From assembly GCA_945957605.1 (NCBI GenBank), contig CAMFLR010000003.1, positions 434,001 to 498,000 of the forward strand: 64,000 nucleotides of DNA. The letters run 5' to 3'. The notes under the pieces are model-generated. The model was not told where the DNA came from and made no database searches. It was given only the letters and a program-made list of their open reading frames with translations. Position numbers and translations under genes: made by a program. The first letter of the stretch is position 1. Every line of letters begins with the position of its first letter. Origin of the DNA: an uncultured Isosphaeraceae bacterium (GTDB lineage Bacteria; Planctomycetota; Planctomycetia; Isosphaerales; Isosphaeraceae). Below, piece by piece: positions 48,223 to 50,706 of the stretch.

Positions 48223-48266
48223 AATTGTCGCGAACCTTAAAATGGGTTCTCGAATCAAATCATGCT

Positions 48267-48401
48267 GGAGGGTGGTGCAGGTCAGGGTTACTTACATTAA
48301 GGATGTCGAGGTCGCGGGTTCGAGTCCCGCCCGGTGGATTGACCCGCCGGTAGCTCAGCGGATAGAGCGCGAAACGTACCTTGGTCGCTACTTCCCCCTC
48401 C
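48267..48401 (+). ncRNA. YrlA-type Y RNA, copy 1 (permuted tRNA-like)
   Basis: Terminal strands GGAGGG (48267-48272) and CCCTCC (48396-48401) pair over 6 bp. A second helix TGGTG/CGCTA follows, with CTTCC left unpaired on the 3' side. Inside is a tRNA-like core in permuted order: T-arm (stem GCGGG/CCCGC at 48314-48330 with loop TTCGAGT), acceptor-like stem CCGGTGG (48331-48337) with CCGCCGG (48344-48350) closed by a 6-base loop, and D-arm GCTC/GAGC (48353-48368) with GG in its loop. This is the arrangement described for bacterial YrlA RNAs, which bind the Rsr protein. rsr lies 1 kb downstream. The tRNA parts could also be read linearly as one interrupted tRNA with copy 2, but the copy-specific outer stems favour the Y RNA reading. 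Confidence 0.8.
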
Positions 48402-48413
48402 GCTTGATCCATC

Positions 48414-48546
48414 GTGCGGTGGTGTAGGCAAGGGTTACTTATTAGGGATCAGGAGGTCGCGGGTTCGAATCCCGTCCGGTGGGGCAACTCGCCGGTAGCT
48501 CAGCGGTAGAGCATCTGAATGGTCCTTTGTCGCCTCTTCCCCGCAC
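48414..48546 (+). ncRNA. YrlA-type Y RNA, copy 2 (permuted tRNA-like)
   Basis: This tandem copy starts 13 bases after copy 1. The outer stem is GTGCGG (48414-48419) with CCGCAC (48541-48546). Its sequence differs from copy 1 while pairing is kept, which is compensatory change. The inner helix is GGTG/CGCC with the same unpaired CTTCC. The T-arm is GCGGG/CCCGT (48459-48475) with loop TTCGAAT, the acceptor-like stem is CCGGTGG (48476-48482) with CTCGCCGG (48488-48495), and the D-arm is GCTC/GAGC with GG in its loop. Strictly shared with copy 1 are GGTTACTTA and GAGGTCGCGGGTTCGA in the 5' half and GGTAGCTCAGCGG and GTCGC in the 3' half. A T run follows at once, so transcription probably ends here and copy 1 would need processing. 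Confidence 0.8.
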
Positions 48547-48554
48547 GGTTTTTT
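48541..48554 (+). terminator. T tract ending the Y RNA transcript
   Basis: The 3' strand of the copy 2 outer stem (CCGCAC) is followed by GG and six T residues (48549-48554). With the long-range stem this resembles an intrinsic terminator for plus-strand transcription. Confidence 0.55.
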
Positions 48555-48555
48555 C

Positions 48556-48597
48556 GGGCACGGTGGTGCTGGATTCAAGTCCCACGCGAGCCTCTTA
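48556..48597 (+). other. Degenerate third tRNA-like or Y RNA fragment
   Basis: GGTGGTG (48562-48568), as at the 5' end of both Y RNA copies, is followed shortly by a T-loop-like GGATTCAAGTCC and GCGAG. There is no D-arm after it. CTCGC at 48488-48492 could pair with GCGAG at 48585-48589. It looks like a truncated third copy, but chance cannot be excluded. Confidence 0.3.
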
Positions 48598-49323
48598 TTC
48601 GATGCCGAGGAGCTGGCAGGTGTCTTCGTAACTGCCTTCGAGATCGAGCGTCACGGCTCGATCCGGCTCAAACCAGAGCGGCAGCGCTGGGAGAGGTTGG
48701 CCCACTACCACGGGATAAGCCCAGGCGTCGAAACGGTTGCGATGCCCGTTTGTGCGAGTTCGGCAACTCGTCGCATACAACGACGGCGGTTCCACGCCTA
48801 GCGTTGGATCAGTTACACCAAGTTCACCAAGAAGTTCCGCATACAGGTTTCCATTGCGATTCGTAACGACATCCACAATGGCTACGCTCACATTCCGTTG
48901 CAGCAGCGCGGAGCACTTCGCCACGAATGCGAGACGATGCTCCGCCCGATCCTTGTTGCCGGGGCTGACAAACTCAACCGCGGCGACCAATCTTTTTTCG
49001 CGTCCCACATCGTAGATCAAGACTTCGTATTCGTGTTGATCGGCAATATCAATGTCCGCGGACACCGTGGGTTCCGTGATGGTTTGCGCCACTGTTGCCA
49101 TGCCAGAATTCGCGTCGTTGGTGTCGGCAGCACGGTTTTCGTGCTCGAAGGCAGCGATATCAAGTTCAAAGAATTGACCCATGCGTGCGCGCGGTTCGGC
49201 AATATATCCCGGTGGGAGCAAGCGGCGGACTCGCCCGACCAGCATGCTGGGCCAGGTGCCATGAAAACCTTCCCATCCGAAGGTACGTGAGATCGGTGGA
49301 TGAAAATGATCGCGCAGCGGCAT
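48595..49323 (-). CDS. DUF4058-like family protein
   Basis: This 242-residue protein begins PLRDHFHPPISRTFGWEGFHGTWPSML, as in planctomycete DUF4058-like proteins, and contains FFELDIAAFEH, AAVEFVSPGNKD and a C-terminal LPALPLWFEPDRAVTLDLEGSYEDTC. The VEFVSPGNK strip resembles a nuclease-type (PD-(D/E)XK-like) core, but catalytic function is not established. The ATG at 49323 has GGAGGG 6 bases before it. It lies on the opposite strand between the Y RNAs and rsr, so it is probably not part of that unit. Its stop falls at the edge of the Y RNA fragment. Confidence 0.8.
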   Translation of the reverse strand: MPLRDHFHPPISRTFGWEGFHGTWPSMLVGRVRRLLPPGYIAEPRARMGQFFELDIAAFEHENRAADTNDANSGMATVAQTITEPTVSADIDIADQHEYEVLIYDVGREKRLVAAVEFVSPGNKDRAEHRLAFVAKCSALLQRNVSVAIVDVVTNRNGNLYAELLGELGVTDPTLGVEPPSLYATSCRTRTNGHRNRFDAWAYPVVVGQPLPALPLWFEPDRAVTLDLEGSYEDTCQLLGIE

Positions 49324-49407
49324 CGACAACCCTCCAGGTCGTTATTTTACCACGTCGAGTTTTGTTTTCGGATGATGTTCTCGATTTGCAGATTGTGAGT
49401 GTGTGCC

Positions 49408-50706
49408 GTGGCTACGTTGAATCGAAAAATGAAGATCACCACGCATGAGGGCGCAACGGCTTCGCACATAGGCGCGATCGCGCAACTCGAGCGCTCAGTG
49501 ATGTCGTGCTTGCTCTGGGAAGACGAGTTTTACGAGAGCGGCCAGACGATCGCCCAGCGCATCGGCGAGCTTGTGCGCCAGGTCCCCGCGGCGGACGCCG
49601 TACGCGTGGCCGTGCAGGCGAAGGAAGAGATGGGCCTGCGTCACATGCCGCTTTTGCTTGCTCGTGAGTTGATGCGCACGAAGGAAGGCCGCGCTCAGGC
49701 GAAGGAACTCTTCCCGCGCGTGATCGTGCGTCCCGACGACATCACCGAGTTTCTGGCGATCTACTGGAAGAACAACAAGGACGAGCCCTTGGCGAAGCAA
49801 GTCAAGCGCTGGCTCGGCCACTCGTTCCGCCAGTTCGATGAGTATCGCCTCGCCAAGTACAACGGCGGTCAGAAAGCGGTGAAGTTGCGCGACGCGATCC
49901 GCATCCTGCGGCCCAAGCCCAGCGACGCCGCTCAGGCCGAGTTGTGGCGCAAGCTGGTGAAAGGTGAACTTGCAACACCCGATACCTGGGAAGTCGAGCT
50001 TTCCAAGGGCGGCGACAAGAAGGCGTCGTGGACACGGCTTTTGAATCAGAAGAAGCTCGGCGGCCTGGCGATGCTCCGCAACGTCCGAAATATGACGCAG
50101 GCTGACGTCAAGCCGAAATTGATTCGCGAAGGCTTGCAGAACATCAAGGCCGGCAAGCTTCTGCCGATCAACTTCATCGCGTCGGCGCGGCACAACGCGC
50201 AGTTCGAATCGGAGCTGGAAGCCAAGTTCTACGAATGCTTTGCGGAACGTACCAAACTTGCGGGCGAGACGATCATACTCATCGACGTGTCGGGTTCGAT
50301 GGACGCGAAGCTGTCGCAGAAGTCGGAAATGACTCGGATGGACGTGGCGTGCGCGCTGGCAATGATTGGACGGGAGATGTTCAAGAATCTCCGCATCTTC
50401 ACGTTCTCAAATCATTGCGTTGAAGTGCCGGGCCGTCGCGGTTTTGCGCTTCGCGATGCGGTAATCAAGTCGCAAGCGCATGGCGGGACGATGCTCGGAG
50501 AATCGTTGAAGGAACTGCCGAAGTGTGATCGGCTAATCGTCATTACTGACGAGCAAAGCCACGATACCGTACCGCAAATGAAGGGGTATCTGATCAACGT
50601 CGCATCGGCCAAGAACGGCGTTGGTTACGGCCAGTGGATACACATCGACGGCTGGTCGGACAAGGTGCTCGACTACATCGCGCGATACGAAGCATCACAA
50701 GCGTAA
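49408..50706 (+). CDS. rsr: TROVE/vWA-domain protein, Ro60 orthologue (Rsr)
   Basis: This 432-residue member of the Ro60/Rsr family binds Y RNAs and misfolded RNA. The TROVE domain (residues about 10-280) is a helical ring with THEGATASHIGAIAQLERSV, CLLWEDEFYESG, GLRHMPLLLARELM, WGLGHSF-like WLGHSFRQFDEYRLAKYN and ALMLRN-like AMLRNVRNMT. The vWA domain follows with the metal-ion site DVSGSMD (Asp293, Ser295, Ser297) and ITDEQ. It is followed by a clear terminator. Candidate starts are GTG at 49408 (family-like ATLNRKMK), GTG at 49399 and ATG at 49429; none has a strong ribosome site. Two Y-RNA-like elements are encoded about 0.9 kb upstream. RtcB, often linked to this system, is not in the window. 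Confidence 0.93.
   Translation: MATLNRKMKITTHEGATASHIGAIAQLERSVMSCLLWEDEFYESGQTIAQRIGELVRQVPAADAVRVAVQAKEEMGLRHMPLLLARELMRTKEGRAQAKELFPRVIVRPDDITEFLAIYWKNNKDEPLAKQVKRWLGHSFRQFDEYRLAKYNGGQKAVKLRDAIRILRPKPSDAAQAELWRKLVKGELATPDTWEVELSKGGDKKASWTRLLNQKKLGGLAMLRNVRNMTQADVKPKLIREGLQNIKAGKLLPINFIASARHNAQFESELEAKFYECFAERTKLAGETIILIDVSGSMDAKLSQKSEMTRMDVACALAMIGREMFKNLRIFTFSNHCVEVPGRRGFALRDAVIKSQAHGGTMLGESLKELPKCDRLIVITDEQSHDTVPQMKGYLINVASAKNGVGYGQWIHIDGWSDKVLDYIARYEASQA

Follow-up and report, generated by a model that had tools for sequence, protein, structure and literature searches.

Tandem YrlA-type Y RNAs with covarying stems upstream of a TROVE/Ro60 gene in an Isosphaeraceae bacterium, one of them of a widespread form with a predicted anticodon arm

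The window, meaning the whole 64,000-nucleotide stretch of DNA analysed here, very probably carries a YrlA-type tandem array before rsr, with two members intact and a third probably reduced to a stump. Judged by their sequence, both intact elements are true bacterial Y RNAs of the YrlA type that precede a TROVE/Ro60 gene, and copy 1 is predicted to belong to a widespread form with an anticodon arm, which recurs in several phyla of bacteria and on about 60 viral contigs. This anticodon-arm form is a more interesting result than the original finding, which concerned the differing stems of the two copies. The predicted features are given below in window coordinates.

48230-48238, plus strand: conserved promoter-like element GCGAACCTT, 37 nt ahead of the first stem
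48267-48401, plus strand: Y RNA copy 1, matching RF02553 with 43.4 bits at 48284-48401
48267-48272 and 48396-48401, plus strand: terminal stem P1 of copy 1, GGAGGG and its partner CCCTCC
48280-48287 and 48379-48386, plus strand: inner helix P2 of copy 1, GGTCAGGG and its partner CCTTGGTC
48292-48308, plus strand: anticodon-arm-like hairpin of copy 1, UUACA-UUAAGGA-UGUCG, with 4 of 5 stem pairs formed
48314-48330, plus strand: T arm of copy 1
48331-48350, plus strand: acceptor-like hairpin of copy 1, closed by a loop
48351-48368, plus strand: D arm of copy 1, preceded by positions 8-9
48387-48395, plus strand: 3' side of the internal loop of copy 1, GCTACTTCC, the last CC of which probably pairs with GG at 48274-48275
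48413-48547, plus strand: Y RNA copy 2, matching RF02553 with 43.2 bits at 48431-48539
48413-48419 and 48541-48547, plus strand: terminal stem P1 of copy 2, CGTGCGG and its partner CCGCACG
48427-48434 and 48524-48531, plus strand: inner helix P2 of copy 2, GGCAAGGG and its partner CCTTTGTC
48459-48475, 48476-48495 and 48496-48512, plus strand: T arm, acceptor-like hairpin and D arm of copy 2, without a separate anticodon arm
48555-48592, plus strand: what is probably left of a third Y RNA copy, with start motif and T arm only
48595-49329, minus strand: DUF4058 gene between the Y RNA array and rsr (PF13267, E 1.6e-8)
49399-50706, plus strand: rsr, encoding a TROVE/Ro60-type protein of 435 aa (PF05731, 58.7 bits, cut-off 23)

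An Rfam search gave E values of about 2e-8 with RF02553 (YrlA, bacterial Y RNA) for copies 1 and 2. The gathering score of 69 bits was reached by neither copy, nor by any of the planctomycete rsr-linked copies scored (best 60.4), and the elements are therefore named YrlA-type Y RNAs and not RF02553 members. T, D and acceptor arms are present in the permuted order of the YrlA-type domain, the 5' and 3' ends are joined by P1, and each copy has a predicted length of 135 nt, the size range taken for the type being about 90-150 nt. A model built from 11 anticodon-arm copies, the one of locus L054 included, and called R1, scored copy 1 at 141.5 bits (48265-48403), the copy 1 sequence having been used in building it, and copy 2, which lay outside the building set, at 113.6 bits (48412-48548). 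Single-sequence folding gave z-scores of -1.07 for copy 1, too weak to serve as proof by itself, and -2.70 for copy 2. The TROVE domain of Rsr lies above the Pfam cut-off, the Ro60 vWA domain PF25045 scored 22.5 bits (cut-off 27.7), and the rsr product is 73-77% identical among relatives within the family. The sequence-only reading had taken the two elements for Y RNAs adjoining a Ro60-type gene, and these scores bear it out. The third-copy remnant aligned locally with copy 3 of locus L065 with a score of 33, the best of 300 shuffles reaching 29; several relatives have a more complete copy as its counterpart.

That the locus consists of degenerate tandem tRNA genes instead of Y RNAs is very improbable. 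The order of T arm followed by D arm arises also from two adjacent tRNA genes, and because of this RF02553 does match tandem tRNA-Arg genes, namely at G000:C16 and in relatives without rsr. No tRNA gene was however called by ARAGORN within the 64-kb window, the terminal stem, UGGUG, P2 and CUUCC are all present with covarying stems, and relatives too have these RNAs before rsr. Both copies lack the open acceptor end of a tRNA gene, the acceptor stem being closed by a loop. A near-identical parent tRNA gene was not found for the modules of the window; there was one 31-nt match of 90% inside a tRNA-His gene. RF02553 also matched at a third site in the genome; this match and most of those in rsr-free relatives were dropped as Y RNA candidates, ARAGORN having identified them as tandem tRNA-Arg genes.

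The pairing of the stems was assessed in 42 extracted copies, of which the 31 with equal spacing form alignment A2. In these 31 copies P1 was paired in 97.3% with double-sided change in 6/6 pairs, and P2 in 95.6% with double-sided change in 7/8 pairs; together, 96.3% of the cells were paired and 13/14 pairs changed on both sides. The inner helix that covaries reads GGUCAGGG/CCUUGGUC in copy 1; in copy 2 it reads GGCAAGGG/CCUUUGUC. The joint covariation score of 0.605, against 0.171 for shuffled alignments, was reached in none of 500 shuffles, and pairing fell to 49-66% when the partners were slid by 1-3 columns. When halves were exchanged between copies 1 and 2, 11-12 of the 14 pairs formed, against 14/14 with their own halves. 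Copy boundaries and 3' partners had been located partly by fitting pairing, which favours P1 and P2, and this is covered by a control with refitting: over the 42 copies, true halves averaged 13.38 pairs, whereas 5' halves dealt elsewhere and refitted averaged 10.76 (maximum 11.38 in 2000 deals). The terminal-stem pairing is thus under selection.

The observation from which the analysis started was real in its main part, and selection on pairing holds, although two of its details were wrong and its evolutionary story was too recent. The terminal stems of the two copies do differ in sequence while both are perfectly paired, TGGTG does follow the 5' strand, and CGCTA-CTTCC (copy 1) and CGCCT-CTTCC (copy 2) do precede the 3' strand. 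Loss of outer-stem pairing in relatives, the result that had been named as fatal to the idea, was seen in none of the intact copies of 13 planctomycete loci, and the proposed comparison with related planctomycete Y RNAs showed covariation not only of P1 but also of the deeper P2, which had been overlooked. The selection on structure that had been read from the two copies is supported for the outer stems; the inner helix then named, GGUG/CGYY, adds no evidence of covariation. This helix was 95% paired over the 31 copies, and it never changes on both sides because its 5' strand GGUG is invariant; it was rejected as a covarying helix, and the change from G-U to G-C that had been called compensatory is one-sided. 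CTTCC, described as unpaired, is present in both copies, but its CC is probably paired with GG: the consensus fold pairs the invariant GG of columns 10-11 with CC of columns 45-46 across a bulged U, and copy 2 folded by itself gives the same pairs. With invariant bases, covariation cannot decide between GG-CC and GGUG/CGYY. The constancy of the internal loop would fit a protein site.

The differences between the stems had further been explained as compensatory changes following a duplication in the source genome, which finds no support in the related loci. GGAGGG/CCCUCC is the copy 1 stem in 8/8 related loci and GUGCGG/CCGCAC or a variant of it the copy 2 stem in 7/8, copy 2 of L068 being different, and since these stems are common to related genomes they are old, position-specific marks and did not diverge in the source genome. 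Recent duplication was rejected, the copies resembling their counterparts elsewhere (core identity 0.81 and 0.86) more than each other (0.72). Compensatory replacement does occur at the level of counterparts, as in copy 2 of L062, where GUGCGG/CCGCAC has become GCGCGG/CCGCGC. The mean duplex energy of P1 was -12.5 kcal/mol within a copy and -5.7 kcal/mol with other copies of the same array, a gap that fits stems keeping the copies from cross-pairing but falls short of proof; the idea of misfolding prevention is weakened because stems differ across genomes as well (mean -6.5 kcal/mol between copies of different genomes).

Beyond the source genome, rsr occurs in 7 genomes of the family, in 6 further ones of the class (1 broken) and in other phyla, and at least two such RNAs stand before rsr in 12 planctomycete genomes besides the source genome. 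The planctomycete arrays comprise two to about five tandem RNAs on a shared base, which on the 5' side runs from UGGUGCA over an 8-nt helix strand to UUACUU, and on the 3' side from the partner helix over GYCUCUUCC to the terminal stem. Between the base strands most copies hold a tRNA-like module of about 70-100 nt, and mini copies only 15-22 nt. Such mini Y RNAs, about 65-73 nt long and lacking the tRNA-like domain, were seen in L066, L068, L070, L072, L073, L074 and L054; copy 2 of L066 is such a mini copy at a place where other genomes have a full module. Copy 2 of L065 and copy 1 of L068 share nearly the same tRNA-like module at different array positions, as if modules had been exchanged between copies. 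Upstream, GCGAACC was found at -36 or -37 from the start of the copy 1 stem in 8/8 loci of the Isosphaeraceae type. A CTC-type motif lies about 17 nt downstream of GCGAACCTT, and the two together resemble a putative promoter of the extracytoplasmic-function sigma type. The DUF4058 gene at 48595-49329 is the single match of its kind genome-wide, the relatives inspected have no room for a similar gene between the array and rsr, and rsr may with this intervening gene have lost a promoter shared with the Y array.

Each RNA would thus be read as a position-specific P1, a near-invariant internal loop (UGGUGCA/GYCUCUUCC), a covarying P2, UUACUU and the tRNA-like module. As the alignments show, double-sided change has kept P1 and P2 paired, the internal loop hardly varies, and the predicted tRNA-like module differs between copies and is missing in some. 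The base of P1, loop and P2 would be the dock for the Rsr ring, docking itself being taken from published work, the distinct P1 stems may help neighbours in one transcript to fold apart, and the tRNA-like module would be the effector end that shows a tRNA look-alike to other proteins. To this the form of copy 1 adds a predicted anticodon arm; copy 2 has the Rfam form, its Y stem running into the position of the anticodon stem.

Copy 1 and 11 other copies have a hairpin where a tRNA would have its anticodon arm, immediately ahead of the variable loop and T arm. In these 12 copies its three inner pairs formed in 36/36 cells in six combinations, and the 7-nt loop had U33 in 12/12; for the whole fold (helices of P1, P2, T, acceptor and D, and the arm) 96.2% was paired in 11 copies. 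In terms of structure the form is, by this prediction, a tRNA whose chain is broken between positions of about 26 and 27; the Y stem joins at this break, and the acceptor end is closed. When the module was rotated back, ARAGORN called tRNAs, e.g. Asn(GUU), Gly(UCC) and Lys(UUU). Model R1 found Y RNAs in 20/20 rsr loci from other phyla, most of them carrying the arm, with best scores per locus of 61-127 bits in the rsr loci of Acidobacteriota, Alphaproteobacteria, Desulfobacterales, Opitutia and Gemmatimonadetes. Further R1 matches of 59-98 bits in other planctomycetes (L078-L090), nearly all without an overlapping tRNA gene, had weak or no similarity to the TROVE protein of the window nearby, and belong either to other rsr types or to stand-alone Y RNAs. 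A DNA pattern for the arm, with U33 and parts of the stem fixed and positions 34-38 free, was matched by 94 viral contigs, about 60 of which R1 confirmed as Y RNA loci; a TROVE-like gene was present in 61 viral loci. Phage records label parts of these Y RNAs as tRNA-Gln (L201:1525-1592), tRNA-Ser (L206:1266-1340) and tRNA-Thr (L211:1310-1377), labels that agree with the loop triplets CUG, GCU and UGU. About seven Y RNAs stand in a row before the TROVE gene of CcrColossus and CcrPW (L201, L202), the loop pattern occurring in one.

The triplet 34-36 was the most variable part of the loop, position 37 being A or G in 56 and position 38 A in 53 of 57 viral loops. Among 83 loops, G36 accompanied G37 in 18/20 as against 1/63 (P 5e-15), and 51 of the 83 had the exact sequence of a real tRNA loop in the data, where 37.9 were expected and 5000 re-deals of the triplets gave 47 at most. 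A36 was rarer in the Y RNA loops (6/83) than in the tRNAs of the data (57/316). Four pairs of RNAs, few in number and chosen after the fact, share 95% identity or more outside the loop, and in these the triplet differed at 7 of 12 positions against 17 of 528 other positions (Fisher 9e-8); the pairs include the Caulobacter phages CcrColossus and CcrPW and two planctomycetes (L073, L074). In the Xanthomonas phages Olaya and 10KY502B, 17 non-loop sites differ, nearly all of them in the tRNA-like domain, and the rsr DNA is 97% identical, so that the Y base and rsr were kept and much of the tRNA-like domain exchanged. We read the anticodon-arm form as a circularly permuted mimic of a whole tRNA with a swappable anticodon. 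That many Ro60-linked Y RNAs of bacteria and phages are such complete mimics, with the anticodon diversifying and the rest constant, and that they lend the Ro-Y particle a tRNA identity that can be exchanged, its simplest use being that of a decoy or bait against anticodon nucleases, is a tentative proposal that we hold at somewhat less than even weight.

Two accounts of the arm bear on this proposal. By the one, a doubtful but credible alternative, the tRNA-like domain is only a tether for PNPase or a gate of Rsr and the anticodon loop a free end without a role, its triplet varying because only the shape of the arm counts or because tRNA genes serve as the source of copied modules. A Y RNA does tether PNPase to Rsr (reviewed in PMC8394870), and module swapping is evident both in Olaya and 10KY502B and between L065 copy 2 and L068 copy 1; drift of a free loop would however not preserve the coupling of positions 36 and 37, and relaxation alone hardly explains changed triplets in RNAs with only 2-6 of 132 other positions changed. 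By the other, which extends the explanation of the window given at the outset and is compatible with it, the Y RNA bound to Rsr presents a tRNA-like anticodon loop as a decoy to anticodon nucleases, so that real tRNAs are spared or repair is recruited, and a change of the threatening nuclease brings a swap of the anticodon. The variability of the triplet, its replacement between otherwise near-identical RNAs and the tRNA rules followed by the loops all speak for this, and through the tRNA-valid, exchangeable anticodon the decoy idea gains in likelihood and can be tested; taken as a whole it is still rather unlikely. Hughes et al. 2020 (PMC7790460) raised the possibility that an anticodon nuclease is competitively inhibited by the tRNA-like domain of YrlA, but in Salmonella fragments of YrlA were undetected, hence it was uncut by the RecA-dependent nuclease (PMC7790460). 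Nuclease binding to these RNAs is something that we infer, and RtcB is encoded elsewhere in the same genome. The loop of the window, UUAAGGA with A34, is also unusual for a bacterial tRNA, and copy 1 may have drifted.

YrlA, the bacterial Y RNA of RF02553, is reportedly the subject of Chen et al. 2014, Wang et al. 2018 and PDB 6CU1. Its tRNA-like domain has been likened to D, T and acceptor arms (PMC8394870) and described as a circular permutation of tRNA (PMC11472068). The RNAs of the window are like YrlA in the nearby Ro60/Rsr gene, the terminal stem and the permuted tRNA-like domain of T arm, closed acceptor stem and D arm. They are unlike it in scoring 43 bits against a cut-off of 69, in the planctomycete arrays with position-specific terminal stems and mini copies lacking the tRNA-like domain, and in the separate anticodon arm of copy 1, which is absent from the Rfam model and from the summary in PMC8394870. 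Text searches of the literature gave no mention of an anticodon arm in Y RNAs, although Chen 2014, Wang 2018 and Sim and Wolin 2018 may have one. With tmRNA and other tRNA mimics the Y RNAs would share a tRNA-like fold and a role beyond ordinary decoding, but unlike tmRNA they are without a reading frame of their own and are linked to rsr. The terminal helix with a one-nucleotide 5' bulge before the internal loop presumably resembles the vertebrate Ro-binding helix; vertebrate Y RNAs are, to our knowledge, without a tRNA-like domain. In circularly permuted tRNA genes the parts are joined into working tRNAs. The Y RNAs have tRNA parts in rotated order as these genes do (PMC3978253), but their acceptor end is a closed hairpin, and the whole tRNA-like part is embedded in a Y stem.

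If the proposal is true, a fixed Ro-docking base combined with a fast-changing, tRNA-valid anticodon would give bacterial Y RNAs a role beyond the tethering of an exonuclease and supply a specific, testable reason for their likeness to tRNA: where tRNA cleavage is a matter of conflict, they would imitate particular tRNAs. Some tRNA genes annotated in phages would then turn out to be Y RNAs, and searches for this class of RNA would have a better model.
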